64,000 nt of DNA, from NCBI GenBank assembly GCA_021018995.1, contig CM037592.1, positions 75,023,301-75,087,300 on the forward strand, written 5' to 3'. Position 1 is the first letter of the stretch. Every line of letters begins with the position of its first letter. Positions 1-64,000 of this stretch are shown one piece after another. The notes below the pieces were generated by a model. That model ran no database searches. It was not told the origin of the DNA and was given only the letters and a program-made list of their open reading frames with translations. The translations under genes and the position numbers were made by a program. This DNA comes from Chloranthus sessilifolius (Eukaryota; Streptophyta; Magnoliopsida; Chloranthales; Chloranthaceae).

Positions 1-394
1 TGATGAACCAAAGAATGTGTGTACCATATGTATTGATTGTGTGTTTTGTTTTGTTTTGTTTTGTGTTGCTTTAGAGTGATGCTTTGATTGTTTGTTTGAT
101 TGTGTTTTATTCATTTTTGTTTTGAGTACATGTGCATATCTGTCATCTGAATTCAATGTTCATATCTTTTGCTAATAATTGAGATGCTCTCACAATAATT
201 GTCATGAATTTGATTTGAAAGAGTATCTTTAAAATTTTGAGTTTTCGAGGTTTAAAGGTTGATAAAGGGTAGCCAAATTGCCATGATGAAGTGGAGCACA
301 TGTCTAGGAGTTAGTGCTGATGAACATTAAATTGGTGCATGACATTGTACATGCACAGGTCAGGGCACCAGTTTCGAGGAATGGGTTAAGTTTT
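1..394 (+). other. Post-pol spacer of element A
   Basis: No coding potential. A GTTTT microsatellite lies at 44-62, followed by AT-rich sequence. The GCATGACA..ACATGCACAGG segment at about 335-368 is conserved in element C, which shows this is element sequence between pol and ORF3 and not host DNA. Confidence 0.6.
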
Positions 395-803
395 GCTCTC
401 TCGCGCAACTAAATGGCCTAAATTTCAAGCTCGGGAGCCACCTGAAGCTTTCTCGCTGAGTTCTTACGGATATTTTGTACCGCACAAGAACTTCATGAGA
501 AAAAGGACATTTGCTATAGCCTGATAGTGAGCCCCGTGAGGTGCTTGAGACTCACATTTTAATACTCACAAGGCTTCGCTACTCTAGCCGCTCGAGAGAT
601 GAGCAACTGCTTCGCACGCCTGGGCCTGAATTTAACTCTGCGAAGAGCCTTGTGAGGCACTTGAAGTTTTTAAATCTGAACTCGTGAGGCTCTACTTTTC
701 TTCACAATAGAACCACTCATTTGGTTAGTTGTGTACTGCGCAAGGAATGCAGTTCGCGAGAACCTGGTGACAATTGCGCGAGGCACGAGTTAAGCCCTAT
801 AAA
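395..803 (+). promoter_or_regulatory. Internal motif array and TATA box upstream of ORF3 (element A)
   Basis: From about 395 to 790 there are about ten CGCG/TGCG words (CTCGCGCAAC, TTCGCGAGAA, TTGCGCGAGG and related) in otherwise AT-rich DNA. TATAAA follows at 798-803 in the context GCCCTATAAACCC. A pyrimidine-rich leader runs about 811-960, a donor-like GTAAGATT lies at 1022, and the ORF3 start codon is at 1165. The same motif type fills the U3 of this element's LTR (5645-6255). Elements C and I have the same order of array, TATA-like box and ORF3. I infer an internal ORF3 promoter. Confidence 0.5.
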
Positions 804-1164
804 CCCTGCGAATTTCTCCCTTTTCTTCATTCTATCTCTTTGCCCTAACTTTCCCCTGTGCCTTTACGAGCTCTCGCTTCTCTTCTTTCTTTTATACTAC
901 CTTTTCCACTCAATCTCAGCTAATTTCCTCAGCTCCCCATCACCTCTTGGTCACTTGAGCTAGGTTTGGGGGGATTTGAACATCTGTGCAACGTGTGAAG
1001 TGAAATCCTAGCTGTCATTTGGTAAGATTTCTCACTCTCTCAATTTATTTAATTGGACATTACTCTAATGTAAGAAGAGAGCAATTGGGGTCTATTTTAT
1101 TTATGAAAGAGTGCATTACAATTGCTGGGATTTTGAAACCCTAATTTGAAGACATTGAATAGCT

Positions 1165-3376
1165 ATGGCCATGGGTTCGAAATTCACAGATGCCTTGTCT
1201 GCTTTGGTAGCCCTACCACCTGCTGGGAGCCCTGTGGCCACTCAAAAATCTGTAAGGATTGCAAAGGCCTCCAATGTGGAGATCCCTGTGGTAACTGCAG
1301 CCACTGAGGAGCCCCAAATTGAGAAAACTGTGAAGAAAGGAAAGGGCATGACCTCTAATGCCCAAGGTATCAAAAAGAAATATGCTCCTAAGAAGAGAGC
1401 CAGAGTGTGCCCACCATCTAAAAGCTCTGAGACGTCAAAGAAGAAACAGAAAATGGGCAAGGATGTTGCCCCTGAGGCCCTTGAGGATGAAGAGGAAGAA
1501 GATAATGAATACCTCAGGGTCCCATCTGAATTTATTGCAGCAATTAAGCTGGAATCTGAGATAATTTTTGAGAAGGCTTTCTTTGAGGAGCTATCTGAAA
1601 CAGCTGCCTCCATGGAATCCTCACAAATGCCACATTGATGCCCCTACTGAGGCCCCCGATGCAACTAGTCTTCCCTAGACTAGTGCAATTATTTTACCAA
1701 AATATCATAATAAAAACTAGGGATGATGGGAACCCAGCATTGCTAGTGTTGATAGACAAATTTGAGATGTTGTTCAATCAGGCAGCAATTGCTAGAATTC
1801 ATAAGATATTAGCTAGGTATAGCCCTGAATGTGGCTTGGGTCCCCCTTTGACAGCCACCATCCCAGAGATAGCCAGGGAGTTGACTAGAGGGATCACTAC
1901 ATCAGGGGTATCAATCAGGAAGAGAGATCTGCACCCCCACCTCAGATTTATGGATGGGGTGCTAAGGAAAAATGTTTTTTACTCTAGACATGAGCAGGAG
2001 AGGAGATCTCCTATTGCTGATGCACTCTTCTCCTTTCACAAGAACCATTACTTGGATGCTGCCAAGCTAATTTTCAAGGGGATGACGGACATTGTGGAGA
2101 AGGTGAAAACCAAGAAGAAACCCCATTCTCTTCCATACTATAGGCTTATTACAGCCTTACTGAAGCTTGGAGGGTATCCATTTCAAATGAAGGAAGAAAC
2201 CATTGCCCTGAACCGCAGAAATTATGGAAAGAAGCAATGGGGGATCAGTGGCACTCTCATTGAGAAGAAGAAGAAGGCAGATGTACCAGCAATCTCTGAT
2301 GTTGCTGCCTTTGTTGCTCCACCCTCTGCGGCCCTCTCTCATGCAGCCCATTCATTTGTGCCAGCCAGCACCACCCCCGTATCTGAATCCATTATCCTAC
2401 CAGCCACTACTCCATCAACCCAAGCCTCATAGCCTCCCATAGTCTCATTACCCTCACACCAGCCCATTTTTCCCACTACCACAGCCACCCTAACCTCTTT
2501 ACCCCTATCTGTACCCTTACCTACTTACCCAATTCACCCTAGCCCACCTGTGAGGGCCACCTATAAGAAGAAAAGGAAATTAACCAAGGCCCACACAAAA
2601 CCCTAACCCACCTATATCTCCTAAACCATCCCAATCCCTAAACCAGAACCTGAACTTATCCCTATCCAGTTACCCATTATCCCCGCACTTGATATCCCAC
2701 CTACTGTAGATACCTCTGATGCTGCAACAGATGTGGAGGACTTAATACCCACCTCCTCAACACCATTCCAAATAGAACCAGAGCCTGAACCTGCAGTCCA
2801 TCATCCTTTACCTTCCATATTCACCTAATCCAACCCCTCTCCCTTGCTGGCTAGCCCTTCTTCAAGGAATCAGCAGCACCTACTACCTGCCTCATCCTTC
2901 TCCCTACCTCCATACTCCACTCTCATCCATGCCATGCAAGAGAACCCATACCTGAGGAATGAAGTCATTAAAGGCATGGCTACCAACAGAACTTCCATCA
3001 GACAACCCTATGAGGAGAAAATCAGTCAGATGGAGTTCGACCACAGGGTTCAACTACTGGGAATATCAAAGGGGTGGGGTAGGATTTTTGTTCTATATCA
3101 AGCTGAAAAGAATATTGCGGCAAAGGAGAAGATGAGAGCTGATGGCCTAGAGAAAAGATTAGCTGCCGCACAAGATGCCACAAAGGTCGTCGGGGACCTC
3201 TATGAAACTAGAGTTCAGCTTACTGAGACAAAGGCAACAATCCTTGAAAGGAACTTGCTGCACTAATTGGCACAGCTCCTCCACAGGCAGCTAAGCCTGC
3301 CCCTCCTGCTACTTCCTCTGCTACTACTAAAGAAAAAGGCAAACGACCCCAAGTCAAAACTAAGCCAACAGATAAT
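1165..3376 (+). pseudogene. ORF3 of Athila-like element A (frame-broken)
   Basis: It occupies the post-pol slot where Athila elements carry their third, often env-like ORF. The first frame (1165-1638) gives about 157 residues: a Lys-rich segment with an NLS-like cluster KKKYAPKKRARV, then an acidic run EDEEEEDNE. After a frame break near 1638 a second frame (1635-2432) carries the most ordered part, about residues 30-220, including RDLHPHLRFMDGVLRKN, DALFSFHKNHYLDAAKL and LPYYRLITALLKLGG. A Pro/Thr-rich linker with stops follows to about 2840. Then 2844-3266 encodes a Glu/Lys/Ala-rich probable coiled coil, and a basic tail ends near 3376. I see no signal peptide or membrane segment, so an envelope role is not supported. 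A nuclear protein is more likely from the NLS-like cluster. The domain family is not recognised with certainty. Confidence 0.6.
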
Positions 3377-3629
3377 TAGGATGATTAACTATATACCTGT
3401 ACTTAGTTAGGATATACATTTTATAGTTCTTTTTCCTTACATTGTACAAATTTTTTATTTTATAAGTGAAATTTCTTTTTCTTATGTTTTGCTTGCTTTC
3501 CATTTTCGCTTCATAACTAGTTTGTTTGTTTTAGTTGTTTGTGTGTGCCTTCTTTCCTGCATTTATTTACTTTACTTAGTATCAATTTTGTCTATGTTCC
3601 CTGCTGCACATGTCCTCTTAGCTTTGAAT

Positions 3630-3643
3630 CAATGAGGACATTG
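3630..3643 (+). other. Stem-loop SL1, CAATG-AGGA-CATTG
   Basis: Five-bp stem with loop AGGA. The same element in C (24720-24733, minus strand) reads CAGTG-AGGA-CACTG, a paired change that keeps the stem. In F (15272-15285) it reads CAATG-AGGA-CATTA. Each copy lies downstream of the last ORF and is followed within tens of bases by a G-rich tract. Confidence 0.5.
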
Positions 3644-5191
3644 CTCCTAATAGGTTTAGGTGGCAAGGATTGTCAATGATTTAATTAACCTAAGTGCAAT
3701 AGTCTTAAATAAGTGAGAAATAAATAGAATGAATTTCACCTAAGCAATGTTGAAAGTGAGGAAATTTAAACATTGAGCAAACCTTTTTAACACTAAAATT
3801 ATTTGAAAATCAATACTTCTATGAGGTAAATATCAAGAAATTTTTTATAAATAGTAGTTAGTGAATCAGTAAAGAGAGAAATAGGTGAAAGCATACCCCT
3901 TTGAGTTCAACTGAAGACCATGCCGAGTGAACTTTGAGCCTATAAATTTTTTTTTTTTTGGGAATGTCTGTGAAAAAAAAATTTCTAGTTCTAAGGACTG
4001 ACTGAGTCAAGCCCTTTTCACTAGAAGTTAGACCCCAAGTTGAAGTTGTTTGACAGTAATCATGACACTAAGGAAATGATCAAGGCCTTTATTTGGACAG
4101 TTTGAGCCTAAAAGATAAAACCTGTGAAACTACCCTTGTGCATACACTTGTTGAGCCTTAAAGCCCCATTTTTTTTCAACAAATACCAAAGTACTTGAAT
4201 CTGAACCTCTTAACCTGATTCGGCCCTACCCTCACTCCGAGAATTCAGAAGGTAAAGGAGAGGATGTTGAAGATAAGCGAGAAAAGTTTAACAATTTGTG
4301 AAAGAAAAAGAAGAGAAGGAGATTTGCAAATATTAGTGTAGCAGTTGTAGATGTGTGACAACCATCATAAAAAAATATATAAATACAAGAAACAAAAAGA
4401 TAAAAAATAGAAAAAAAAAAGAAAGAGAAGTCAAAAGAAGAATTTCATTGGAAATGTTGAGAAGAAGAGAAGAAGTTGGCCACTTTAGCTCTGAAATTTT
4501 AAAAGAAGATGAAGTTGTGCTGAAATGAAGAAGGTGAAGTCATGAATCATCTCCTACCGGTACTGATTTCTCAATTTTGAATCCCTCTTTACCCCTTTTA
4601 TTCTTTACAACCCTCACCAATAAGCCATATTACAATCCTTGAAAAACCCTTGTTGATCCAAAGTCAAATGAACTGTCATGTGAAGATAAAGGAATGTCTA
4701 ATCCATGGTGAGAGTACTTTATGATGTCAGAAATTAGAAGAGCTGTCTATGCTCATGCTTGCAAACCCATTTGGGGTATGTAACTGCTCTTGAGCTTATA
4801 TGAAATGATACACCCTTAAATTCATTTATGAGAGGCAACCCTGGTAAGCATTGGGTCAGAGATTGAAATCATTGGGGTATTGTTTGAACCTAAATTTAGA
4901 TGTATTGGTAAGCTTGGTACTATTTTACACATTGTTTTCTTGTTGTCAGCTGATTAGATGTGATGAGCATACATGCATGACTGCGGTATTAAATTGTTTG
5001 CATACACTACTTTGGAACTCCTTTAATTTTGACAGAGCAAGGGTGAAATAAATTGTATTTATTTCAAACTGATTAACCACTATGTGCACTTTTGTTAACT
5101 GTTTCATTGAGAAGTTTGTGGGTACCTTCACTAAAAACCCTCAGGAGACTTCAAACCTCTAGTAGGGATCACCTAGGGGTTTAAAAGGCTT

Positions 5192-5212
5192 GATGCATAA
5201 GCTAAATGCATC
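5192..5212 (+). other. Stem-loop SL2 before the polypurine tract (element A)
   Basis: Stem GATGCAT/ATGCATC with loop AAGCTAA, 113 bp before the LTR start. In F (44208-44228) the stem is ATTGCAT/ATGCAAT, perfectly paired with two compensatory pair changes, 115 bp before its LTR. In C (23131-23151, minus) one pair is broken. Confidence 0.55.
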
Positions 5213-5288
5213 TGTGCTTCCTACGAAAGTAGCATTTACATTCTTAGAGTAGCTGTTTAAATTTTGCTTTGCTCAGGGACTAGCAAAG

Positions 5289-5304
5289 ATTAGGTTTAGG
5301 GGTG
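5289..5304 (+). other. Polypurine tract of element A
   Basis: Purine-rich TTAGGTTTAGGGGTG lies directly against the LTR start TGTTATTCA. This is the expected plus-strand priming site. Element C has the same boundary in reverse at 23037/23038. Confidence 0.75.
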
Positions 5305-5644
5305 TGTTATTCATTGAAAAGTACCACTTTTCACCTCTTAACCTAGCCTTTGTTGAACCTTAAAGCTGAATAATAACTCCTTTTTGGCTTGTTTTGTAGT
5401 TAGTAATAAATTGTGCAGCTTAATACAAAGTCTAAGCTTTTGGTTCCAAGAAGAGAGAGAATTCAAGCAAAAGATGACAGCTGAACCAGAAAGTGATAAA
5501 ACACCATGGTGGTATGCACCATAGTGACTATTTTGCATATCATAATAGACCAAGGAAGTCCAGCAGAAGAAAGAAGTATAGGTGAAGAGTGCAGGAAGCT
5601 ACAACAAAAGCATGTGCCTAGCAGCAATGGAGCCAATGATCTAT

Positions 5645-6255
5645 TTCGCACAGCTGAGGTGCTGCCTCACACTGTTCAATTCACTGGCAAAGTTCCCTCG
5701 CGCAGCTAAGACATGTAGCATAATAGAGCTTCCAAAGAAGTCGTGCAGCTCAATGAAGGGGTTATCACAAAGCAGCCTCTCGCGCAACAGTCACGCACTT
5801 CATCTGTAATCAACATATGAAGAAACTCACAGAGCTTTCGCGCACTAAACCTCCATAAATACAACTTGCGAAGTTCTCACGAGGATCAAGCCTTAATACA
5901 GCCGTGCGCACTACCTCATGAGACCAATTGATGCGAACAACAGTAAAGACCTCGTGAAGTTCTCGCATGGCCCTAGAAGTGAGAGACTTCCAAAAGTTCT
6001 CTAGCACAAATCTCGTGCGCCTTGAAGTTTAACCTTGAACCAAGCGAGATGCAAAGGCATCTACGCAAGTACCTCATGAAAGAAAACTTCTGAAGCTCTA
6101 CTGCACGAGTGCATTTAAAGTAAAAGCAACTGCGTGATCACCCAAAGTCCTACTGTGCGAGACAGCAACATTCAAAGCCAAACTCTACCTTGCAAAAACT
6201 CTGTAGCTGCGTGACAAAAGTGATATGCAGGAGCCAGCCTTGCGAAGGTCGGGCC
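5645..6255 (+). promoter_or_regulatory. CGCG motif array in U3 of LTR A
   Basis: About 15 variants of TCGCGCAG / GCGAAGTTCTC / TCGCGCAAC occur between 180 and 790 bp upstream of the TATA box at 6433. Full units approach an inverted repeat, TCGCGcAGCT..CGCGA. Many copies show CG to TG or CA changes, as expected if methylated. Confidence 0.5.
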
Positions 6256-8320: not shown

Positions 8321-10766
8321 TGTGACAACACGGGATTTCCTTACCCAAAATCTGATCCGTCGGATCTCGCAATCTGCTCCAAATACAACAACTCAATTCC
8401 CCAGAGTTAAAAGGTTGGAAGAACCGAGCCATTAGTATAAGGGTAAGCATGCATACAATCTAAAATCAAAGTGCACAAGCGAATGGCAAAGCGGAAAGCA
8501 GGCAAGCTAATACTAACTATTCACACGACATCAAGCTTAACTATTCACACAAGGTTTACAAAATAATTAACCATTCACATGTCCCATCATCACACAAAAT
8601 ACCAAAAATATCCATCGGTGAAGGCCGTCCTTCACCTAAATAGTGGATCCACACACATACCATTGTATTCTTTTATCCCAAATATCTTACCTTACAAAAT
8701 CCCAAAATATTTCATGCTCACACTCCCCTCAGCTAAGAACAATGCTCCTCTAGCTAATCCTCCTCTTCTCCAATGGTATTATGAGGATCCTCCTCCTGCT
8801 CCGGATCTTGCAGAGGGCCAGCTCCTGCAGCTGTGACATATAGTCGAGGAATGAGCTTCATCTAAGCTCAGTAGGGACATAAACAATGCAAAATGATATA
8901 ATATCATTCTAACTGATGGCATAGATGCATATATAGAACAATGTGGCAATTTCATATGACATCAAAAGTATGCGAGCATATGTAAGTTCCTGAAAACATG
9001 CGTTCATAAATATGCCATGTCATGATGCAAGAAAGTGTATGAATTCATGTCAATAATCGAGACAAGGAAATTAGAACTGACTTTCATATCAAGTTGGGAA
9101 GACGAGTTGTACAAGATGGACATATAGGATCACAACATTGAGCAGAGCATATCACATCGAGTAATCGAGTCACATAATATTAGCGTGAGCATCTCGTAGC
9201 GGGAATAGAGCAGTCCATAGCAGGCACTAGGTTAAAACCCTGAGGACTCCACCCCTCCCTTGAAGATTCCACTCCACTCACAACTAATCACAAGAACGAG
9301 AGTAGACTTGTGGCAATTGCATCCCGTAGCGGAAACTAAGCAGTCCGTAGCGAATACAAGGTTATTACCCCCGGGACTCCACCCCTCCCATGGAGGCTCC
9401 ACTCCTCAGTTGCACACAATCACATGCATAGCATATACACATGAATAATATCGGACAAGAGTTGGTTCTTACACATACACGTTCACACGAATAAGTTTGG
9501 ACACGAATAATATCACAAAACAGATTTGGATTTCTCAATCGATCAGTGCAAGCAAGATGTCAAGTAAATCATGCAATTTCATGTATAGAAACAATCTTAA
9601 ATCATATGCATGGCTTTCATTGATCAAGTAAGTGACGAAACTATGTGAATCAAGTACTCGCAAATCATTTATGTTATCCCATGATTAAAGTCAAGCATAG
9701 ATCTTTGCATTCCAAATTTCCCTATGTTAAATCAAGTCGAGCACACGTGTAGATTCTATAAGTTCAAATCGAGACGTTTTCCCATGCTTTTTTCCTAATT
9801 CACAAGGCCAAACACTTGTATTTGTCATTAACAGCTCAATACATTCACGCGGTCATGGTTCACAAGCATGGAAGTCAAATCAGGCCCAAAATAGAGTTTC
9901 CCACTCGAGCATGGTACATTCCTGCTCAAGCGATTCCCAGTGGTACCTACAATCATGCTCAAGCAGTTTTGACCCGAGCCGATTTAGCCTATGAATCCTG
10001 CTCGAGCATAGGCTTCAGGTGATTTCTCGCTCGAGCGGTTCCAATCACGCTAGAGCATAGTCTTAGTATAAACCAACACATCACACTCGAGCAAAACTGA
10101 CCCGAGCATTTTTTGCCTATGATTCTCACTCGAGCATAGGCTTCAAGTGATTTTACGCTCGAGCGACCCCAATCATGCTCGAGCGGTTTTTCCAATACAA
10201 CCCTTTATATCACGCTCAAGCGGAATTGATCCGAACGAAATTAGACTATGAATCCTGCTCGAGCGTAGGGCTTCAGGTGATTTTTCGCTCGTGCGGCTCT
10301 AAATCACACTCGAGCATACTCCTCAGACCTATCCTCATTTACAGCTGATACCTCTACTCGAGCTTACCTTTAAGGCCTCTCAACAGCACCTCAATCACAC
10401 CTTATACGAGTCGTCACTTGCTTACAAGATCCTCCCTTTAAAATACATCAAAATGCACATCACATTCTCATGCTTTTACTAGTTTTAACACCCGCTATTT
10501 ATCCCCAAATTTTGAAGCACATGATCCAGCGATCGAAGCAAGAAGCATCAATTCTCGCAATTCTCACGCGTTTCAATTTGTGGAATCATTGCATGCGGCC
10601 TCGAGTATTGACAATCGACAGTGAGACTCAAATTCGAAAACAAATTGCATGTGTTACGAGGGTTACCTTTAATAGTTTCCACGCATGGGGAGATCTACGA
10701 CTCGCCGACGTCTCATTAACACCGTCGAAGCGCCAATATTCTGATTGTTTAACACTCTTCGCCTTG
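8321..10766 (-). repeat. LTR of element E, segment 1 (3' part of the LTR)
   Basis: Minus-strand LTR beside the Met-type primer site. It ends on this strand with CGTGTTGTCACA. It is interrupted at 10766 by element F (target duplication CCTTG at 10762-10766 and 45802-45806) and resumes at 45807. The 5' end of the LTR, TGTGACACCCTG, is at 49905. Removing insertions gives an LTR of about 3.1 kb. The CTCGAG array lies in this segment. Confidence 0.7.
9902..10315 (-). repeat. GCTCGAGC array with 128-bp higher-order period in LTR E
   Basis: CTCGAG or one-step variants start at about 9904, 9925, 9958, 9973 | 10001, 10030, 10050, 10086, 10101 | 10129, 10158, 10178, 10215, 10231 | 10258, 10287, 10309. 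Equivalent positions recur every 128-129 bp, so this is a tandem array of about 3.5 units with up to five motif slots per unit. Spacer words such as CATAGGCTTCAGGTGATTT also recur. Confidence 0.8.
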
Positions 10767-10970
10767 TGATCAGTCACAAAATTTATCATTTTATCACCCT
10801 TAACATAGTGATGCTAGGCCATATTTTGTTACTAACAAGTTGATGATGTGCAGATATTAGAGATAAATAGTAAAATAGAGTAAAAGTGTTAAAATTCATA
10901 AAAATGAACGCAAAAAGCAATACGAAAGACAATTGAACAAAAAAGACATTTTCTACCTACTGAAAGCCAG

Positions 10971-11439: not shown

Positions 11440-11447
11440 TATAAATA
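11440..11447 (+). promoter_or_regulatory. TATA box of LTR F
   Basis: TATAAATA. The 3' LTR has the same box at 44990-44997. Confidence 0.6.
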
Positions 11448-42693: not shown

Positions 42694-42698
42694 TAATC

Positions 42699-50998: not shown

Positions 50999-51009
50999 AT
51001 GCACGGGTG

Positions 51010-51434: not shown

Positions 51435-53881
51435 TGTTAAGACCTGAAAAGTACCACTTTTCACCCCTTAAGTCAGCCTTTGATTAGACCCTTAGCCATC
51501 TAATAAATGCCTGTTAAGTGTTTTCTATAGGTAATAAACAGCAGGGCAATAAGGCCATAAATCCTGCTAAGGAGCCTGTGTTGGCACCAGAAGCCCCTAA
51601 GAAGAATGAACCATGAATCCAAACCTTAGAAGAGCCTCGCACAGCTGACAAAGCTCTAGAGGATTCAGAAAAATACACTTCGTGCAGTCCTCGCGAAGTC
51701 CCAAGACTTTACAAGCAAGTTCTCGCACAGTAGAGTGACAGAAGAGCTTCAAAAGCCTTGAGTCGCACAGCTCTCGCGAAGATTAGAAGTTCAAGGTCGC
51801 ACAGCTCACACGCAGTTCAAGAAGACCCCTCTCACCCTCACGTGGTTCGCTCAGAACAGCTGAGGAGAGAGAGCTTCAAAATCCTGCCTCGCGCAGCTGT
51901 CGCGCAATAGCCACGAGATGCAAATATCAAGAGAACCTGTCGCGCAGTTCTTGCACTGTTCAAAAAGGAAGAAGTCTCGCGAAAGCTAGAATTAGACTCG
52001 CGAAGTGAAATGGAATGCTCGCGTAGTTCCCGCGCTATTCACTCTTATCAATCCAACTGCGCGAAGCCCAACCCAGCGAGAGCTCAACTGTCTACCTCGC
52101 GACTACTCAAGGCATCAAGAAGCTACAACCACGCGACGTCTGAAGCTCTAATGTTGAATTCAACCACGCGAAGACCAGAGCTACCATGCGACAAGTCTGG
52201 GAATCGACTACAACCTAGCAAAGCTCTGAACTCTAACTTCCATCATTCTGTAGAGGACTTTCTAGGGATTTCCAGCGATTAGGGCACGCACTCCCACGGT
52301 CAAATCTCTATGCACGTGCTCTGAGGTATCCAAGGATCACTATTCGGCCACGTGGTATCCTTAAAATTAGGGTTTCCTAACCCTAATGCGCCGCCACCCC
52401 ACTGCTATAAAAACCCAAACTTAGTTTAGGTTTAGGCATAGAATTTATCATAGAATATATCTTGGAAATTAATATAGACTTGGTCGGAGATCGTTTTTTC
52501 TTTTCCTATAAGTAGTTTTCTTTTTCTTCTTTTTCTTCTCTCCATGGCCCAGCATTTGCTGGCCATGCCTTTGTACGTCTATTGAAATTAAATTAATGGA
52601 GTTTTTGTGATAGGACTTTTACTTTTATGGGAATTGTGTACTCATGAGCTGTTATGTGGAAGGCTGCTGCCTTGTGATCCGCCATTGCTTTGGTTGTGTT
52701 TCAAAGCAATGGAGGACTGATTCTAAGGATCCACTCAGATTCAAGTGACCTGTGTGTCTGGGCTATCATGGTCCTTTACAGCCTCAGCCCCACCACATGA
52801 TCCACTAGATCTGAAATTCTCATGTGAGCCTGAGCTTGTAGCCTTGTGACCATGGTGGTAGCAGCAGTTGACTTGTTTTGTCTTGGGCTCCGTGAGGAGG
52901 ATAGCCTCTGGGATAGTCTGTGACCATTCAAGTGGACAGGTTATATCCTTAGGGTGAATCCAATCTGTCGATCCAAGATGGATCCTTCTTCCCCGAGCCT
53001 GAGCTGTTAAGCCTGGTAGGAGATTGTGCAGAGACAGACTCCCCATATATCTGTATAGATCCACCATCAAATGTTAGATCTGATATGGTCATGGAGATTA
53101 TAGGCTTGTGACTAGACCATTGCAGCCCCACTGAAGCAATGGACAGGTAGATCTAAGGTGGTACTCAATCTCTTGCTGGTTCTATGTGTCTGGGCTATCA
53201 TGGTCCCATACAGCCTTAGCCCCACACATAGAGCATTAGAGGTTGAGGTTCCCTATGGATTCCTGAGCTTTTGTAGCCTGGATGAAGTAGTGCCTACAAT
53301 GATTATTTTATTTTGACCCATCTCTGGTCTGTGGTTCCCCTATGGGATAGTCTGTGACCATTTAAGTGGACAGATTATAACCTTAAGGGATTGGATCATG
53401 ACACGGGGATGAGTTGGATTCTTTCTCCTCTTTGGTGATAATGTAGCCATTGGATAGGATTTCTATAACATCAGATCTGAATCTGAGTTACAAAACTCCA
53501 CTGACCTAAACTCAATAACATACTTCTCACCCTTTTATATTTATTTTCCACACTCCATCCATCTTCTCAACCCTTTCTATATTTAACTCATTAGGTTACC
53601 TTAGAATACTTAGAATAAGTGACCTTAAACTCCCCTCCTTTTAGGACTGCCAGATTTGTAGTCAGATCTGGAGGGACTACTAGAGATAGCTCCCTTGGAG
53701 CTGTAGATCACCTTTCCCTATGGGACAAACTCTTATAAAAACATGCTACAAATGGACCTTGTCTCTTGCAGGTCTAGGATTTCTCAGCTGTGCTAATTTC
53801 ATCCCCTGTTTTACTCTTTCTTTGATTTTAAATTTTTTTTATCACCAACCAATAAAGCAAGCACACTCAGAATCCGCAACA
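51435..53881 (+). repeat. 5' LTR of element I (2447 bp)
   Basis: Starts TGTTAAGACCTGAAAAG, ends AATCCGCAACA. It has a CGCG array (about 51645-52215), TATAAAAA (52406-52413) and the leader hairpin (52543-52567). Two diverged copies of the TAGCCC..GATAGTCTGTGACC segment lie at about 52730-52950 and 53180-53390. Confidence 0.88.
52543..52567 (+). other. Leader hairpin in LTR I
   Basis: CATGG, bulge C, CCAGCA, loop TT, TGCTGG, CCATG: eleven perfect pairs around one bulged base. The outer pairs differ from LTR G and the solo LTR by a compensated change (CATAG/CTATG there). Confidence 0.6.
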
Positions 53882-53887
53882 AGTTTT

Positions 53888-53905: not shown

Positions 53906-54245
53906 CATATGATCTATTAGCAGCCCTTAGTTTTTGTATTTTTAGTATTCTTCGTAAATGCGAATAATTGATACTGCTGATATAATTTTGAATCTTTCTT
54001 GCAGATCTAGACAACAGTAGAGAAGGACATAGGACAGCATTTGGAGATTAGCTACCTCTGTTTGCAATTCTCTAACCTTTAACACTTAGTCTAGTTTTCA
54101 TTGAAAATTATATAGCAGTTGTTTAATATAGTTGTAAATGTATGTCTTTTTAAACTAGCTGTAAATTGGTTAAAAAAAATAAAAAATTCTTTGATTCAAG
54201 TGCAATGTGCCTGCAAGGAGTTGTCCCTGCTAGTGGTGTGTTTGC

Positions 54246-55793
54246 TTGCTAGGTAGGAGGTCTCTTAGTCCTACTTTAGAGCCTTTCAACCCTGAGATAG
54301 AAAGGGGTAGAAGACTTGGCAAGAACAGACACATCACAGTAGAGCCCCCAACTGAATTTGAGACAGTAATCATGGGTGAAGAACAACCCAGAACTCCCAA
54401 GGAGTTGAATGCTCTGGATGACTATAACTCTCCATTCAGCATTCAATTCCCTGATGTTCAAGGGAATTATGAGATCAAAACTTCAATCATCCAGATGTTG
54501 CCCTCTTTCCATGGGCTCAGCAAGGAGGACCCTTATAAGCATATTGACCAATTTTTAGCCTTGTGCACCACTTTCAATATCGCTGGTTTGGGACCTGAAG
54601 CTACTAGGCACAGGCTCTTTCCCTTCTCTCTGAAGGATAGGGCTAGTACCTGGTTGGCTACTCTTCCCAACAATGGAATCACTACATGGAAAGACCTGCA
54701 GACCAAGTTCCTGATAAAGTTCTTCCCTAAGACCAAAACTAGCCAGTTGAGGAAGGAGATTCTTGCTTTTGCTCAATCCCCAACTGAAGATTTTAATCAA
54801 GCCTGGGATAGGTTTAAGGAAATGCTCAAATAATGCCCCCACCACAAGATCCCAGACTGGCAGCTTGTATAAAGCCTCTACAATGGGATTGATGAGAAAA
54901 ATAGAGATATGGTGGATGCCTCTTGTGGTGGAACCTACATGCACAAGACTGCTGATGAGGCATGGGAATTGTTTGAGGTGATTAGTAAAAATTCTTTTCA
55001 AAAACCATCCCTAGCAAGAACTAGTCAGGAGTCTGAGTCAAAAGTGGGGCTTGCTGCCACATCAAGAGGAAAAGTTTATGAGGTGTCTGGGAATAATGAC
55101 CTGCAGCTGCAGATGGCAAACCTCTCAGGGAAGTTTGACAAATTATTGACTGTGATGCAACCCAGAAGGGCTGCTCAAGTGGTGGAGGCATGTCTGATAT
55201 GCCAGTCCCCATAGCACACAATAGAGGAATGTCCATCTGCAGGGCAATATCCTGAATTGGTTTTGGAACATGCTGCTGCTACTCAATCGTATGGCCAGCA
55301 ACAATCTGGGGGTTACAATAGACAGCCATATGAATACCAGCACCAAAATGCTGGTTACCAATGGAGAGACCACCCAAATTTAAGGTGGAGGTAAGACAAT
55401 TACATGCAGCCCCAGCAGATGTTGGCCTTACCTCAAAGGCCACAGCAGCAGTTCAACTAAGGATATGCCCCTAGGTCTAATTTCCAACACCAACAGCAGC
55501 CCCATCAGCAACAAAATCAATTGGTCTTACCCTCATCTCAGCCCAGGAATACTTCTTTCGAGGACCAGGTCTTGACCTCACTACAAAACCTGGGGACTTT
55601 GGCTCAGACTATGAATTCTCATGGTCAGAGCATAAAGAAGTTGGAAGAGCAGCTAGGCCAATTATCGAATGCCTTAGCCAAAAGAGAAGAGGGGAGGTTG
55701 CCCAGCCAGCCAGTGGAAAATCCTAAGGGCCAATTTTTGATTGGTGAAGGATCCTCAAACCCTGAGGGGCAGGGGGATCTTTCATTAAATTGA
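54246..55793 (+). pseudogene. gag of element I (one frame, five Gln-type stops)
   Basis: 516 codons in one frame. Domains: N-terminal arm GRRSLSPTLEPFNPEIERG; YEIKTSIIQMLPSFHGLSKE; capsid-like core LFPFSLKDRASTWLATLP..FLIKFFPKTKTSQLR..FNQAWDRFKEML; zinc knuckle CLICQSP*HTIEEC; Gln-rich region; C-terminal coil SIKKLEEQLGQLSNALAKRE. Stops: TAA 54831, TAA 54870, TAG 55212, TAA 55392, TAA 55458. All are TAA or TAG, most easily from CAA or CAG. There is no frameshift, which suggests a fairly young copy. The frame ends 15 codons after NPKGQFLIGEG, where pol should continue. Confidence 0.88.
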
Positions 55794-56689
55794 TTCACAA
55801 ATCTGTGCATGGTGTATGTTATGTATTTTAGTATGGTTTGTTCTTTTTACTGTTTTTAGGAATTTGTAGTGAACTTGTCAGAGTTTGAATGTATATGACC
55901 TGAACAATTTGTCTGCCTGCTTTGCTTCTGGTCCCCTTTGGATTGATACTTGTGATTGAATGAATGATCGTTAGATTGTGTGATTATGAGAATGTTTTTT
56001 TTTTTTTTTATTGTTGGATGTGAGGTTGTGATTTGATGCTTTATGAGAGCAATTGCTTGATTAATTATCGGGGAAGCATAGAGAGTCCTGTGGTGAATGA
56101 ATAAGGGTGCCCCTGGACGAGAGCCTATGAGAGAATCCACCCACAAAGCTAAGGTCAAAGGCTGACTGGTGGGTGTGTGTAGTTTTAACTCTGTTTAAGC
56201 CATCGCGCGGTTATGAGAATGTGGCTTGGCTCCCTCTCGCGCAGATCATAAGGAACTGCTATGCTGTCGCGCGTTTCAAACGCTGTTGTGTGAATTCCTC
56301 GCGCTGTTTGGATGACCATCCAACCTCGCGACCCACTCACTTCTATCCAGCGAGCAGATCATTTCAAAGCGCACCGAGCCTCACAATTTATTTAAAGCCA
56401 ACCCCGCGTTGCTTTCCTCTTATGTTTTCTCTTTCTTCTCCAGCCAACAAAACCCTAGCTCTGACTCCCATTAATCTCCCTCCTCCAGCATCCAGTTTAC
56501 AATCCATCATTCACCTTCTCATTCTGGGGATTTGTTCCTAAAGCATCTTTCACCAGTTGCCCCCTGCTAAGAGCTCTCACGGTCTCTTACGCATCAGATT
56601 AAACAGAACCCTAACTTTTAGGGTAAGCCTCAGCTCTCAACCTTTACTTTTCATTTTGCCAACAACACACTCACAGAGGAGAGGTTCCA
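55794..56689 (+). promoter_or_regulatory. Post-pol spacer and internal promoter region of element I
   Basis: AT-rich spacer, then a CGCG array at about 56205-56345 (ATCGCGCGG, CTCGCGCAG, GTCGCGCG, CTCGCGCTG, CTCGCGACC). A TATA-like ATTTATTTAAAG box at about 56387 and a pyrimidine-rich leader follow, leading to the ATG at 56690. Confidence 0.45.
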
Positions 56690-56886
56690 TGGCCCCTAAG
56701 AGTGCACCTGTGAAAAGAGCAAGGGATAAGGAAGGTGAGATAGCCCAAGGCACTCCAAGTCGGCGAGGTCACTCTCATCCAAGCTCCCAAACCAGGCTAT
56801 TAGAAATTTGGGCCCCAGGCCCAAGGAAGGGGGCAAATTGGCTACAGGCCCTCCACGTAAGGGAGGGTTACAAAGTGGGTCCATGA
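56690..56886 (+). pseudogene. Start of ORF3 of element I, running into element J
   Basis: MAPKSAPVKRARDKEGEIAQG is basic at the start, like the N-termini of the other ORF3 copies. From about codon 35 the reading passes into sequence belonging to J and ends at 56886. It is a chimeric frame with no supported function. Confidence 0.4.
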
Positions 56887-57052
56887 ACGTATAAAGATTT
56901 TCTGAGAAGACAAAAATTGATGTATGGTGATGGACCCACCTTGGAAAAGCAAGAACAAAAAGAACCGGTCAAATGGGCCAAGACAAACAAAAAAGAAGTG
57001 ATTTTTGGACTAACTTGGATATATAAGGACCCACTACTTCCCAGGTTAAACA

Positions 57053-57218
57053 GGGCGCAATTATTAGTTTCGCCAGTGTTTTCAGCCCCAGGTTGAGCCT
57101 GGCGCAACTATTAGTTGCACCAACACATTTTTGTCCCCATTTATGCCTGGCACAACAAATAGTTGCGCTAGTACATATTTTATGGGATTTCAACCTGGCG
57201 CAACTAATAGTTGCGCCA
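57053..57218 (+). repeat. Palindrome array J1 (four copies, 48-bp period)
   Basis: Copies start at 57053, 57100, 57148 and 57196. Each is the half-site GGCGCAACTA, one central A or T, and the reverse complement, with 0-4 changes. Spacers of about 25 bp differ. TATATAA at 57020-57026 lies just upstream. The array is downstream of the PMD gene. Confidence 0.85.
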
Positions 57219-57789
57219 CAATACACTCCCCCCTCTTCAGCCATCCCGAGACCCAGCTGTGGGGACTTACACCCCTTTTGTTTTTTCACAGACCTCGTTT
57301 CATTAACAGTTTGGCAATTATTTTGTTTATTCATATGCAGGACTGATCCTACATCAAAGCATACGCCCAAGGAGTCGCTTTCTGAGAACATTTTGGGCAA
57401 ACACATCCTGCAGAGAAATAGGTCCGATGCAAAGAGATCATGGCATAAAATCAAAGCATAAATTCTAAAAATATTTTCCAAAAATAATGATCCAAAGTAT
57501 CACATCAACCATCTCCAAAATGATTAAACAAATTCAAATTGAATTCCAAAGAGTACTGAGTTTTCAAAACAAAAACTAAAAGCCTATTCCTTGCTGGTGC
57601 CCTTTGATTTCATGGGATGGCAAGAGGAGCTCTGGAAGGTCCAAATGTCCCCCACCCTGGACCACGCCTACGAGATCCTACTGAGTAAAGAATGTGACTC
57701 CTTAGCACGAGCAAAGTCAAGAATCAGGATCAGTTAAGGGACAAATGATAATGAAATCAATGAGAGGAGTAGAGCAGCAAGGTACTCAC
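57219..57789 (-). other. 3' flank of the PMD gene
   Basis: A further exon may begin at about 57695 on the minus strand (acceptor TTTACTCAG). The short frame there is not recognisable. The rest is AT-rich and non-coding. Confidence 0.3.
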
Positions 57790-60019
57790 TGTCTCCACCT
57801 CCCTAAGCTCTGCAAGATGGCGATGATACTTTGCATATTCCATGGCCGAATTGAAGTCCTACGTTCAGAACAATATAACATAAATTATCAGGGCAATCTT
57901 AAAGCATGTGCAATAGGAGGCTGAAACGGAAAGAGATTGGGCCATCAGCAGACTTACCCCTAGAACCACATAAGGAGGAGGGACACGGGCCGCCTCAGCA
58001 GAAAGCCACGCTTGTCGATCCACATCCACGCAGTGGTCCGAAAGGAAGCTGTCATCCAGGCGCTGGAAGGTCCTATAGACCACGGGCGGATCGCCACCAG
58101 GGATACCAGCATGAGAGGTACCTGACGGACCAACACTCGAAGAGCCTTCGCCCGAGGGACCCACACAAGAAGGGCCAGCACCGAAGGGATCTTCCTCTGA
58201 CATATCTGCTGCACTCGTCCTGCCTTCACCATCCGAATCATCCCCTGGAGCAAACTGTGAACAAAATAAAGATCCGCTTAGAATGAATGAAGGACCGAAC
58301 TAAAGCATAAAGGGAACTAATCCAAGCTAAGAAGAATTACTTGACCAAGTGGGCGGTCGAACGCAAGAAAGTTGGCGCTAGGTACAAAGTGCGACAAGAT
58401 ATATCAGTACGACAGACACTCGTACCAAATATGATAGTCCCTAGGCACATGGAGAGCATGGATGGAAAGCCCATTGTTGAAGAAGGTCGTGGTAAGCTCC
58501 TTGATACTGCCAATGGGATACCAAACATCCATCGGAGGGTCCACCGGTATGGCATAATAACCCTGGAATTGGTGCACCACTCGCTCTCTCAGATAATAGA
58601 ATTTGGCCCATGCTCCATAGAAGAAAACGACGCGGCGATTGTTAAATAGGCGGGAAGCACCTACAGCTGCTAGGTCCTAGAAGGGGGATGCAAGGTACGG
58701 GTCAGGGAGGATCTGCCCAAGTAAAAAGAAAAGAGAATCCAAGCAGTTAGCACATCAGTAAAAGGAGATTCCCGAGCTAAGAACAAACAAAGTTGAAAGA
58801 GAGTTTTACCTGCACAGGAACCATCAAGTCGAGTTGGGACCTTAGACCCGTCTCCAAGTGCTTTAAACCTACATCGCGGTGTCAGGCCTGATTCCAGTTG
58901 CTGAGGAGGGGATAGGTGAGCACCTCCGAGAAAAGAAGCGGTGCCAGGGGTGAAAGTGATGGAATCCCCATACCTGAAAGGGGGGCATTGCACAAGACCG
59001 GGTTAGTAGCGTATATGGATCATTTAAAAAATATGGCAAAGGCAAAGGAATGAGGAATTACCTCTAGGGCGATCCAAAATTTAACAACAAACTTTGAATC
59101 CCTGGTCATGACTCGAGACAAATTGTACATCAACCATGCATACCCTACCCCTCCCCAGTCATACCTGTGGACGTCACCCCAGTTGTCCATCACACTCAAC
59201 AGGGCTAGGCTGACTCGGCCACCGCTCGCATTGGGGAAAAGGGTCTTACCAAGCTGGATCAGGGGAGTAATGCGGGCTAGGATGATTGCCCGCTCTGGCG
59301 TGATGTAGAGCACCCTGTCTGGCTAACCCAGCTCCACTAACTCATCAGGTGTATAAAAGGAGGTCAGCCAAGGCATCTTGACCTCGGTGCCATGTGTCTG
59401 CCCATGAGGAGGATAGGCCCCAATCAATCGAATGATGTCCTCTCGACTTGGCACCATGAGATCAGATATCGGTATCCCCTCTATCCTGATGCCGATAATA
59501 ATGGCCCAGTTGACGGGCATCAAAGTCATCTCTGCATACGACATGTGAAAGGTAATCGTCTCGGGGCGAAACCGTTCAATCAGGGCTTTCAGATAGGCAG
59601 TGTTGGCCTTCATGGCAGGGCAAGATAGAAATTCTCTGAAGCCCACGTGTGCCAGAAGGACCTTTACTATGGAAGGGACGTAGAGGAAGAATTCATGGAA
59701 GTCAAGCCACCTGCCACAGAATACAATGTTGGGAAGGTCCTGTACCCAAGAAAATGCGCATAAGATCACAAGGGCAAAGCAAAAATTGCATAATGGAAAT
59801 GAATTGAACCTCTCTTTTACCTTGCCTGCTATCCCAAAGTTTGAAATGTGGGTATGTTGTTGGTGAAGGAGGCTGACTCGGGTGACCTCACCTTGCATCT
59901 TGAGCCACTGGCCAGCTCTCCGATCTACCCAGATGAACTACTCCCCCCGCGAGCCGTATACAATCTCGGGCCCCTCCTCGTGGCCCTCCTCGGGAATATG
60001 CTCACCCTCACCCTACATT
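57790..60019 (-). pseudogene. Plant mobile domain (PMD) gene, multi-exon, four in-frame stops
   Basis: Minus strand. Exons inferred from GT..AG sites and reading: 60019-59821, 59739-59062, 58973-58810, 58712-58341, 58254-57958, 57858-57790. Exon 2 carries the PMD signature LKALIERFRPETITFHMSYAEM then GIRIEGIPI, and after a stop SVMDNWGDVHRYDWGG then YNLSR. Exons 3-4 continue with LRSQLDLMVP and RVVFFYGAWAKFYYLRERVV then HIWYECLSY. Exon 5 is acidic and Gly/Ser-rich (GDDSDGEG). Stops: TAG 59325-59323, TGA 58884-58882, TAG 58680-58678, TGA 58406-58404. The exon 2-3 junction seems to need a one-base phase shift, so a small indel is possible. PMD proteins (Arabidopsis MAIN/MAIL1 group) act in nuclear gene regulation and transposon silencing, and PMD is common in transposons. 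Confidence 0.75.
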
Positions 60020-61200: not shown

Positions 61201-61219
61201 AATTCCCCTCAGCCATGCT

Positions 61220-61338
61220 TGGCGCAACTAATAGTAGCGCCAGGTAAAATGTTTCCCACCTATTGCTTGGCGCAACTATTAGTGGCGCCAGGCTATTTTG
61301 AGGCCCCTAATGGCCTGGTGCAACTAATAGCTGCTCCA
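61220..61338 (+). repeat. Palindrome array J2 (three copies, 48-bp period)
   Basis: Copies start at 61220, 61268 and 61316, exactly 48 bp apart, with unrelated spacers. It lies just upstream of the PMD leader. Confidence 0.85.
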
Positions 61339-62986
61339 GGCACTTAGGCCGGGTCTTGGGCCTGGTACGAGCCAGATGGGAAGACCGGTCCCCCACTCTT
61401 TTTGTTTGTTCCGTCGCTCCCGGCAGATGCACACGTTCCCAAGGCGGCATTTCGATCATCCTTCGACTTACTAAGAGAGCCATGCTAAAATAAAAGCAGA
61501 TCGAGATCAAAGAGCACCCCGGTCCTACACAGGAAAATATAAAGAAAAATACAAACAAAATCCCCACAGAGAAGCTGGAAGTATTCACAAGAAAAATACA
61601 CAAAATAAAAGCTTCAAAATTCCAAAAAAAATCACATAAAATAATAACTTTGAAACTCCAAAAAAATCACATAAAACAATAGTTGATTTTTTTTTAAAAA
61701 TTGCATAAAATGATAGAAAAATCAAAAACAGGTTTGTATTCCCCACAGAGACGCACAACCATAAGGCGGTAAAACGTTAATATTTTATCTACAATGCAGT
61801 TGTGTCATACTAAAGTCATGAGTCGGAGGTTCACCTCGGATTTTTAGATCCTACTTTAAGGAAGGAGCAACAGTGTCGGTCTTGGTCAAACAGTCAATGC
61901 TTCAATCGAGTCGACTCCATGGCTAAATCTTTGCGATGAGCGTTCTATTTGGATTCATGTGAACTTAAGTGTCTTATGCTTTAGATTCTCCATTGGAAAG
62001 GTTAAATCATTGGTTGAGACCAACCTGTTGAGAATGAGATTACATGTCAATCAAACTATGTGAAACCATGCATTCAGAAGGGTTCATTTCCCATTTTTAT
62101 TTTCTGCAGGCTTAAAACCTGTATGGGCAGCGGTATCCCTATAAAGTGTACACCATGCATCTGAGTATCCATATGATGGTCATTTATCCCTGTATATTGT
62201 ACTCGGGCCGGTCCGTGTTGGGGCTTCCATCGCCTTTGCTGTTGCTTATTGCCCCTGATGGGTGCATGATTATGCATAGTTAATTGATGTTTATGATCAT
62301 TGTCAGTAGAGACCAGGATTGGATGTCCCTTCATGGAGATACCTTAATATTTGGTTGGATCTGTTCAAGGTAATCAAAGCTGGATGCTCTAAGCCATGTT
62401 AATCTAAGGCAAGGTTTTAAAAATGGCACGCACTGCCAAAAAGTGTTGTGGCATCTATTCACTTTGCTCGGGCAGTCATGCTAAATAAACTTCGGGGTCG
62501 ATGGGTTCATCCAAAGACCTCAACCCCTACTTTCAGTAGGGGCACCTACGAACTGTCAGATGGGGCCATCAAATGCCTCGTAGGATTGAACATAAACTAT
62601 GGAGCCTTGCGTACGCTTACTTCGCGCCTATCTTTGAATGTGAGTCGGTCACCCCCCCTTTTTACTCACGAAGTTGTTGCATTTAGAATGAATTTTAAAC
62701 ATTAAATACCTTCAAAATCATCCTGAGAAGTGAATATCATTCCCAACTCTAGGGAGTTCGCAACTCATTCCACCTCGGTTATGCCCAGTAATGTCGCTAA
62801 GCACTTTGGAACCGATTACCTTGAGAAATAAATGTTTAGCCTGGCGTCTCAGGGCTTTTGTTTTCTCACTGTGTTACTCATTTGATATTTTAAGTTCGTT
62901 TTGAATGTAGTGGACCCATTAGTAATGCCTTGGGCCTCTTCAAATGTCTCTTTTTCTCTGGCATTCGATCATTAGTGATCGAATAT
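61339..62986 (+). other. Spacer between the PMD gene and 3' LTR of element J
   Basis: No recognisable gene. Minus-strand GTGCGTCTCTGTGGGGAA at about 61755-61738 is faintly like a Tat primer site, and a similar TTCTCTGTGGGGATTTT lies at about 61567-61551. Short open frames at 62448-62705 and 61603-61307 match nothing I know. Confidence 0.35.
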
Positions 62987-63000
62987 TAAAGAGGGGCATA
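62987..63000 (+). other. Polypurine tract of element J
   Basis: AAAGAGGGGCATA lies directly before TGTAGAGACTC, the LTR start. Confidence 0.6.
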
Positions 63001-63420
63001 TGTAGAGACTCAAATTTGGCCTATGGCCTGATCGAAACACCTTTCGAGAGAGGTGCAATTCTGAGCTTTTTGATGACATGTATGGAACCTTTAGGAATCC
63101 CCCTAGAATCCTTAGAAACCTTTCCAAACCCTTAGAAATCACCCTAGATCCCTTAGGAACCTGACTCGAACCTTTAGAAATCAATCTGGACCCTTGAAAC
63201 CCGTTCTGAACCTAACCTTATCAAGCAAATGATTGAGGAGGGGTGCACCAGAACTACCTACAACCCTCTACTATAATCAAATTTCATACCATTGAAAAGT
63301 AGAGGTCGTTAGCTTTTCAACGATCCAAGAATCAGCCCAATCAGAGGTATATATAAAAAGATACGGCAAACCAAGCCCGGAGGGCATAAGTGTAAATTCA
63401 TGTGGGTCCCCCTAGGGATT

Positions 63421-63625
63421 TGGCGCAACTAATAGTTGCGCCAGTTATAAATTTGCCTGGCAAAAGTATTAGTTGTGCCAGGCCAATTCTCCTAGATTTT
63501 AAGCCTGGAGCAACTATTAGTTGCGCCAAGGTTAAAGGTGGGGCCCACCCTTGCTAACGAACTTTCAGGCACTGCTTAGAACTATTTTATTGTACATTTG
63601 CCTGGTGCAACTATTAGTTGCGCCA
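63421..63625 (+). repeat. Palindrome array J3 in LTR U3 (four copies)
   Basis: Copies start at 63421, 63458, 63506 and 63603. Intervals are 37, 48 and 97 bp, the last being two 48-bp steps with one slot empty. It lies 283-487 bp upstream of the TATA box at 63908. Confidence 0.8.
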
Positions 63626-63907
63626 GACATATAAACAATAACCTCTAAATTTTGCCCTAAAAATCATGATTGGGATTTGACTTGTTGACCACCTTGACCT
63701 TTGGGGTGTGTTTTGCTAGTTCTATTGCACTCATTTCCTACCTATTTGCAACCCTTCAAGTGGCCTAAGGCCTCACCCCATCATCAACGATTGGAGGACC
63801 TTCTCACACATCTCAAGGCTCCAAAAACCCTAGGAATCCTTAGATGTGAAATCACCTAATTGGTCACCCGTTTAGCTCCTAAGTGATCTCCTAATCCACC
63901 CATTTCC

Positions 63908-63915
63908 TATAAATA
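63908..63915 (+). promoter_or_regulatory. TATA box of LTR J
   Basis: TATAAATA in context TTTCCTATAAATAGAGACCCCC, a strong plant promoter context. Confidence 0.65.
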
Positions 63916-64000
63916 GAGACCCCCACCCCTTAGCTTAGGGGTTGAGAAATTTGCTTAAGAGAGAAAGAGCTCAAAGTGAGAAGTTCTTCCTCCCATTTGT

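Follow-up and report, generated by a model that had tools for sequence, protein, structure and literature searches.

A stretch of 64,000 nucleotides from Chloranthus sessilifolius (contig CM037592.1, positions 75,023,301 to 75,087,300 of the forward strand) was analyzed and is called the window below, with coordinates counted from its first nucleotide. Self-comparison and inspection of the ends showed that the bulk of this plant window consists of nested, decayed long terminal repeat (LTR) retrotransposons. Six families, designated A, D, E, F, H, and J, carry arrays of short reiterated motifs in their LTRs, and these arrays, together with their recurrence inside some of the elements, are the subject of this analysis.

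Five A-type LTRs, each starting with TGTTA, were located at 5305 (plus strand, A1), 37335 (minus, A2), 29827 (plus, A3), 51435 (plus, A4), and 49445 (minus, A5), in addition to a damaged 3' LTR of A2 at 23037 (minus). The F element is bounded by a pair of 1.48-kb LTRs (10767-12250 and 44323-45801) that are 90% identical and have CCTTG on both outer flanks, and other elements are nested within it. D LTRs occupy the minus strand at about 15377-18310 (D1) and 38291-42694 (D2), the second containing a 1.41-kb tandem duplication (39335-42155, copies 94% alike) by which its motif array is doubled. E is a minus-strand LTR with its end at 8321 that is interrupted by F, H is truncated at 51434 by A4, and the plus-strand J LTR starts near 63001 and extends beyond the window edge. 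Words resembling primer sites and polypurine tracts adjoin the A and F LTRs. F and A1/A2 have in common a ~240-bp block, ~75% alike, whose end is close to the polypurine tract (5106-5345, 23000-23238 on the minus strand, and 44122-44363), despite which the LTRs of F and A1/A2 did not match each other.

Sixteen of the 40 long open frames were scanned against Pfam (ten first, then six more). The six additional frames gave no family at or near cut-off, and no Mutator-type or VANC match occurred among the 16. Retrotrans_gag was found in A4 and CCHC knuckles beside D2. On the minus strand of A2, a reverse transcriptase (RT) piece (24.5 bits, below the cut-off of 29.6), an RNase H-like piece, and an integrase core follow each other in this order, on the basis of which A is of the Ty3/gypsy type. 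F and J are presumed to be of that type as well; the gene order of A2 is not that of Ty1/copia, and no pol was identified in the window for the other families. The A1 frame at 1599-2429 matched PF20167 (Transposase_32) with an E value of 1.2e-10 and 42 bits, below the curated cut-off of 45, and the minus-strand frame at 59326-59937 in the J region matched the plant mobile domain (PMD; PF10536) with 1.5e-9 and 38.0 bits, above the cut-off of 34.9. Clade names follow primer-site types and Pfam pieces rather than a phylogeny. The A group and F are taken to be Athila by primer-site type, the gag of A4, and the naming in the initial annotation. D and E are presumably Tekay-like chromoviruses, judged by primer-site-like words at their LTR ends and by the CCHC pieces beside D2, and the Tat/Ogre label of J comes from its PMD frame and LTR start only.

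Motif arrays in the LTRs

Repetition was assessed by two shuffle tests, one of 12 regions with 500 dinucleotide shuffles each and one of 425 windows of 300 bp with 40 shuffles each. Compared with dinucleotide shuffles, E, D, and J were far out, H was moderate by direct repeats, and F was weak. D, E, and J were strongly palindromic, F and H less so, and A only in part.

The J motif is a 21-bp palindrome, GGCGCAACTAWTAGTTGCGCC, of which 11 copies within six mismatches occur at 57.1, 61.2, and 63.5 kb and none elsewhere in the window; at five mismatches it was likewise confined to the J arrays in a count over 20 arrays. The LTR array (63418-63628, plus strand) has four sites, with TATA words at 63348, 63446, 63630, and 63908. 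The two other arrays, on the minus strand, comprise four sites at 57049-57220 and three at 61217-61341. Inverted-repeat z values at the three arrays were 18, 11, and 6, and six of the eight site intervals measure 47-48 bp. Scans of viral contigs with the J palindrome, an integrase piece, and an RT piece returned no loci.

The A motif, approximately YYTCGCGMAGNTC, is near-palindromic and degenerate. It was evaluated out of sample with a degenerate matrix, built from A4 and A5 to scan the other arrays and from A1-A3 to scan A4 and A5, against 200 shuffles of the same sequence. All five LTR arrays contained 9-17 matrix sites against shuffle means of 1.3-1.7, and none of the 200 shuffles reached the count. 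The A1 array (5645-6255, plus strand, TATA word 6433) holds 13 sites against 1.4, the 5' LTR array of A2 (36395-37025, minus, TATA word 36292) 9 against 1.3, and the A3 array (30065-30600, plus, TATA word 30827) 10 against 1.7. With the matrix of A1-A3, 17 sites against 1.6 were counted in A4 (51633-52215, plus, TATA word 52406) and 15 against 1.7 in A5 (48655-49265, minus, TATA word 48402). A remnant in the 3' LTR of A2 (22375-22740, minus), the rest of which is rearranged, retains 5 sites against 0.5. Sites occur in both orientations, with 4 of 9 to 12 of 17 in sense. An earlier matrix had been trained on the arrays that it scanned; the out-of-sample run is the reliable one, and the earlier matrix underlies the BLAST masking, the core and spacer identities of A, and the core CpG figures. 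Exact 6-mer counts were significant in A4 (CGCGAG seven times, p 0.004), A5 (eight times, p 0.002), and A2 (p 0.012) and not in A1 (p 0.82) or A3 (p 0.46), and TCGCGA occurs five times each in A4 and A5 (p 0.004). Palindrome totals were discarded as evidence in A as they were at chance level, except for 6-bp palindromes in A5 (p 0.010). The A5 LTR further contains several tandem duplications at 46484-48240, one with 160-bp units, that are 89-98% alike.

The three minus-strand D arrays lie at 17050-17320 (D1, ten sites resembling AAATCGACCGGTCGATTT) and, within the two copies of the tandem duplication, at 39960-40240 and 41370-41650. Their best windows reached direct z values of 12.8, 17.8, and 15.6 and inverted z values of 15.0, 17.2, and 16.5, respectively. 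The sites follow each other mostly in steps of 19-21 bp, and no D site was found in the window outside these arrays at the matrix threshold used. In each of the three copies, one TATA-like word stands ~220 bp downstream of the array and a second lies within it. Short tandem repeats with a 23-bp unit occur elsewhere in the D LTRs (16268-16324 and 39186-39250). The E array (9902-10365, minus) consists of 15 sites resembling CGCTCGAGCG in four-site units of ~128 bp, with CTCGAG occurring nine times (p 0.002) and z values of up to 38 direct and 22 inverted; its TATA-like words appear only inside the array and >1 kb on.

The H array (51010-51434, minus, TATA word 50997) is composed of degraded GCGCCC..GGGGCG palindromes and is cut off by the LTR start of A4. 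It reached a direct z of 6.1 in the window shuffles, and its exact 6-mer count was not significant (p 0.11). A 26-wide H matrix built from this one array overfitted, with 51 matches outside and 24 inside, and was not used. AATCGT..ACGATT palindromes form the plus-strand F arrays in the 5' LTR (10971-11137) and the 3' LTR (44525-44690). The former reached an inverted z of 5.8 and the latter did not pass the window shuffle test; since windows without a named array score 5.1-6.9 (17551, 40501, 49951), F is unexceptional by this test. Exact 6-mer counts in F were not significant (p 0.29 and 0.14).

Each motif was also counted across 20 arrays, with three mismatches allowed for A. D and J motifs occurred in their own arrays only. 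The E motif was counted 13 times in its own array and 3 times in A arrays, the H motif 4 times in its own and once in an A array, the F motif 17 times in its four arrays and twice in D arrays, and the A motif 103 times in its eight arrays, 6 times in E, and twice in the J array at 57 kb. Outside all arrays, densities per kb were 0.00-0.11 for D, E, H, and J, 0.90 for F, and 1.92 for A, compared with ~26 within A arrays; the A background and its matches in E and J are due to the three mismatches allowed. The arrays are thus real and near-private to each family. CpG was in excess over the flanks in A, D, F, and H, close to the flanks in E (1.10 and 0.95), and mixed in J (0.69/0.36, 0.47/0.70, and 0.49/0.30).

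The initial annotation, which had described a different reiterated motif in the LTRs of each family, was borne out in part. Repeated motifs are present where it had placed them, with all five A arrays standing out by the degenerate matrix, and the codes are near-private. It had called the motifs mostly palindromic and mostly CpG-bearing: the first is clear for D, E, and J, weaker for F and H, and too strong for A, in which the motif is only near-palindromic and the palindrome totals are mostly chance, and an excess of CpG was seen in A, D, F, and H, not in E or consistently in J. The proposed division into arrays upstream of a TATA box (A, F, H, J) and arrays deeper in the LTR (D, E) is doubtful for D, whose position is not clearly different given the TATA-like word downstream in three copies. 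The J array, claimed without coordinates, could be placed at the three positions given above, with 11 sites.

Second arrays inside the elements

The initial annotation confined the arrays to LTRs and overlooked internal ones at 393-815, 25692-26060, 56195-56415, and 13780-13980. Three of these carry the A motif, in A1, A2, and A4, which are all of the A elements with identified internal sequence; none was identified for A3 and A5. The A1 internal array (393-815, plus) has 10 sites against 1.1 in shuffles, with strong sites extending to 789, a TATA word at 798, and an ATG at 1165 that opens 157 codons. In A2 (25692-26060, minus), 6 sites against 0.6 precede an ATG at 25367 with 82 codons, and the TATA word (25377) is only 10 bp before the ATG. 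The A4 array (56195-56415, plus) contains 5 sites against 1.0, with a highest shuffle of 4, and is followed by an ATG at 56689 with 65 codons; it has TATTTAAAG at 56389 and no word fitting the TATA pattern used. None of the 200 shuffles reached the site count at any of the three, and an ATG-initiated open frame follows each array. In BLAST at E 0.01, whether motifs were masked or not, the internal arrays did not match any LTR array, and those of A1 and A2 matched each other when unmasked. The A code recurs inside these elements with little resemblance beyond it.

In J, the array at 61 kb (61217-61341) precedes the PMD exon on the minus strand and has no TATA word near it, and the array at 57 kb (57049-57220) has a minus-strand TATA word at 57025, ~25 bp away. 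The antisense PMD frame (59326-59937) is situated between these two arrays. In F, a cluster of four sites (13780-13980, plus; AATCGTA at 13798, 13826, and 13906) is followed by a TATA word at 14149 and an ATG at 14225 with 28 codons, and a second pair of sites is present at 43400-43690 (plus) near the 3' end of the internal region. The window holds nine AATCGTA words, of which three are in F LTRs, five in F internal sequence, and one elsewhere. Of 18 AATCGT words outside LTRs, 8 fell within the 7.8% of sequence taken as F internal (binomial 3e-5), two of the eight being halves of one palindrome; these words and the one-mismatch count were picked after the LTR motif had been seen. A half-site matrix failed to single out the internal F cluster.

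Several observations were made beside these arrays. In A4 (54234-56883), the gag frame is followed by the internal array within ~400 bp and no pol was seen between them, and F (12251-15376) has a similar layout by eye, also with no pol seen between; A4 and F are possibly non-autonomous forms retaining the internal unit. An H-like word of the ATGCACAGG.CAGGGCAC type stands just upstream of the internal arrays of A2 (26078) and A1 (by eye, ~350-370). Two 200-bp bins of the J region (61201-61400 and 62601-62800) hold three A-type sites each, with the A4 and A5 matrix only. GCAGTT, which forms the right half of the A motif (e.g., 51936), resembles the DOWN motif CATGCAGTTT that is linked to host PMD proteins, which may be chance.

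Divergence of cores and spacers, and folding

J cores (21 bp) were 0.81 identical within and 0.79 between arrays, compared with 0.48 and 0.45 for spacers and 0.28 for shuffled spacers, where the spacer was defined as the 23 bases before the next core, including three bases of the longer palindrome arm, in six of eight intervals (those of 37 and 97 bp were excluded). The mean identity of all 11 cores was 0.835. The J cores are constrained. Spacer similarity lay above all 300 shuffles, so an old unit of 48 bp, with its core retained, is common to the J arrays. The statement that J arrays share nothing but their cores, taken from masked BLAST, was dropped when this finer comparison showed residual spacer similarity.

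In A, core and spacer identities were 0.725/0.693 and 0.750/0.662 between A4 and A5, 0.628/0.555 between A3 and A4, 0.468/0.463 between A3 and A5, and 0.629/0.612 and 0.681/0.622 between A1 and A2. The two LTRs of A2, whose decay since insertion is expected to be neutral, served as the reference and gave 0.802/0.911 and 0.811/0.898, with core decay ~2x that of spacers. In the F LTR pair, cores (0.876), array spacers (0.848), and the rest (0.911) were uninformative. The repeat units of E showed no clear difference between core and spacer, and neither E nor H has a second element within the window.

Predicted folding against 40 shuffles each was strong for J (z -6.9, -4.6, and -7.1), D1 (-9.1), the first D2 copy (-7.9), and E (-5.2), compared with -1.4 to +1.5 in three control stretches. 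The A arrays folded close to their shuffles (A4 -1.6, A5 -2.2, internal -2.7 and -1.0). Compensatory arm changes were about chance, with 1 in J, 0 in D1, 0 in the first D2 copy, and 2 in E; as they were not in excess, RNA structure was not supported as a selected feature.

Interpretation and comparison with known systems

The array of each family would be best explained as predicted sites for one sequence-specific, probably dimeric DNA-binding protein, since short symmetric sites whose halves change independently point to such a protein rather than to a selected hairpin. One array would precede the promoter of the LTR and, in A, J, and possibly F, another would stand within the element, ahead of an apparent second promoter. 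The same code at both places suggests joint control, and one factor could switch both transcription units together. The internal TATA-like words may be promoters of the open frames behind them, and protein binding to the arrays, predicted from sequence, may activate or protect transcription. Family-specific binding-site arrays, which the initial annotation had also proposed, fit best in A and J by their near-private codes, core conservation, and second internal place, and the whole explanation is given a probability of roughly 0.6.

A number of points weigh against it. D cores diverge faster than spacers in three of three comparisons (identities of 0.88, 0.83, and 0.78 against 0.96, 0.90, and 0.89), which speaks against constraint in at least one family. 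The lower relative divergence of A cores between elements (log odds -0.02 to -0.43) than within one (+0.92, contrast z 2.7-3.7), which counts in favour, is drawn from one within-element pair and six non-independent comparisons, by alignments favouring motif-to-motif matches, and no single between-element difference is large alone. Core constraint in A is accordingly less firm than in J. Slower divergence of cores, on which the initial annotation had staked its reading, was thus found in J and less firmly in A, and contradicted in D. The J arrays are not independent, as their spacers retain a trace of common origin, and the F and H arrays are weak. Frames behind internal arrays are short (157, 82, and 65 codons in A and 28 in F), and TATA placement at these arrays is irregular. 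Only unmasked BLAST carries weight, as motif masking also removed most of the similarity between homologous LTR arrays. Counting in favour of the explanation, CpG observed/expected in A LTRs was 1.40 in cores, 0.39 in array spacers, and 0.15 in the rest, the core value being partly circular since the core was defined by a CG-bearing motif; the low spacer value argues against shielding of the whole region from decay.

Two narrower forms of this explanation differ in the origin of the protein. In the first, each family captured and multiplied the sites of a different host transcription factor as an enhancer, and the internal copy answers the same signal. This form is a tentative one, somewhat short of even odds. 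The presence of A LTR sites in both orientations is in line with it, and LTR cis-boxes are often stress-factor sites; the motifs of Sireviruses, a group of Ty1/copia elements, matched mainly stress sites in PLACE (PMC2829016). However, a few host factors used in common would not be expected to give each family its own code, or motifs as long as the J palindrome of 21 bp.

In the second, a regulator encoded by the element itself (PF20167-like in A1, PMD in J) would bind its own array at both places and prevent silencing, as VANC does in VANDAL transposons. The adjacency of second arrays to open frames in A and to the PMD gene in J, and the lack of D sites outside the D arrays at the threshold used, agree with it. 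So do published systems: nine Sireviruses with ENV have linker copies of their motifs and four without ENV have none (PMC2829016), VANC motifs form arrayed tandem repeats in non-coding DNA (PMC5735166, PMC10398659), and genes with a common promoter motif are misregulated in host PMD mutants (PMC7156037, PMC9899485), in which papers DNA binding by PMD proteins is itself a hypothesis. Yet Pfam recognised no DNA-binding domain in the extra open reading frame (ORF) pieces scanned, two queries had no relative in PDB, protein searches with the A1 and PMD frames found no relatives, the frames in A are interrupted as well as short, and none of notable size begins at the ATG of F, all of which makes this form doubtful. 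More doubtful still is its generalization, by analogy with VANC, that extra ORFs including envelope-like genes encode family-specific DNA-binding regulators, each binding private arrays at both promoters, and that such a self-recognition code arose in copia and gypsy elements alike to counter silencing.

Neutral tandem repeats, produced by slippage and unequal exchange and functionless, would account for the ~128-bp units of E, the 19-21 bp steps of D, the old 48-bp unit shared in J, the faster decay of D cores, and the E cores that are not clearly better kept. This explanation is unlikely in view of the J cores, kept where spacers were mostly lost, of the core constraint in A, and of the same code at a second place. 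Transcribed palindromes could alternatively fold into hairpins that supply the small-RNA silencing pathway or are conserved as RNA structures. The folding of J, D1, D2, and E agrees with this, and maize Sirevirus palindromes attract small RNAs according to a citing paper, but the chance-level compensatory changes and the A arrays, which fold little better than shuffles, leave hairpins quite improbable. It is very unlikely that the arrays are targets through which the host silences the elements, for instance by REM proteins recruiting Pol IV to repeated motifs: REM-bound motifs in Arabidopsis are described as closely spaced repeats, but the motifs here are unlike the reported TTTTGCTTAT and AAGCGGAT, and elements should lose such sites.

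The initial annotation had named VANDAL elements as the known parallel. They share with the present arrays family-specific short motifs that are dense in non-coding DNA and spread via tandem repeats (PMC5735166, PMC10398659). They are, however, DNA transposons, whereas F has an LTR pair and target-site duplication, and primer-site and polypurine-like words stand beside A and F LTRs; VANC21 motifs are reported in one orientation with binding shown, whereas binding here is predicted. The likeness to host PMD proteins consists of the PMD gene between J arrays and the common promoter motif of genes misregulated in the mutants, but DOWN (CATGCAGTTT in MORC1) is not the J palindrome (PMC7156037, PMC9899485). 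Among plant Ty3/gypsy elements, 57% of Ogre elements carry a PMD and 16% of Athila elements the ATHILA ORF-1 (PMC6317226), and the passages of that survey on extra ORFs do not mention motif arrays. No report of such a layout in Athila or Tat elements was found among the open-licence papers listed, PMC2829016, PMC10760457, PMC1142308, and PMC6317226 included, an absence of little weight; the word stem "palindrom" is absent from PMC1142308.

The closest published match is instead the set of motifs that Sireviruses repeat in their LTRs and upstream of ENV. These RM boxes are element-specific palindromes, at least 8 and as many as 32 of them; most begin 200-400 bp inside the LTR, in association with CpG islands and ahead of a TATA box, and 77 of 79 extra copies lie upstream of ENV (PMC2829016, BMC Genomics 2010). 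Palindrome arrays likewise precede the LTR TATA box in J, with 4 sites in the LTR, and in D, with 10 sites and the TATA word ~220 bp downstream; A is near-palindromic only. Second clusters occur in A1, A2, A4, F, and J, but the frames behind those of A and F are short, and only the J array at 61 kb stands upstream of a PMD frame. Most Sirevirus motifs share a CGG-CCG core, whereas the six motifs here differ and have no common core. The second array stands before ENV there, whereas here it adjoins short open frames or a PMD gene in antisense, and the RT-RNase H-integrase order of A contrasts with the Ty1/copia type of Sireviruses. A layout close to this one, known and unexplained in Ty1/copia, would extend to elements of the Ty3/gypsy type, as A is by gene order and F and J presumably are. 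A code shared by LTR and extra gene bears directly on the long-standing question of what extra and envelope-like ORFs do in plant retrotransposons. If the extra protein binds it, the most abundant elements of plant genomes would join DNA transposons in encoding their own anti-silencing or self-activation; if it is bound by a host factor, the arrays would reveal how host regulators are shared out among families.

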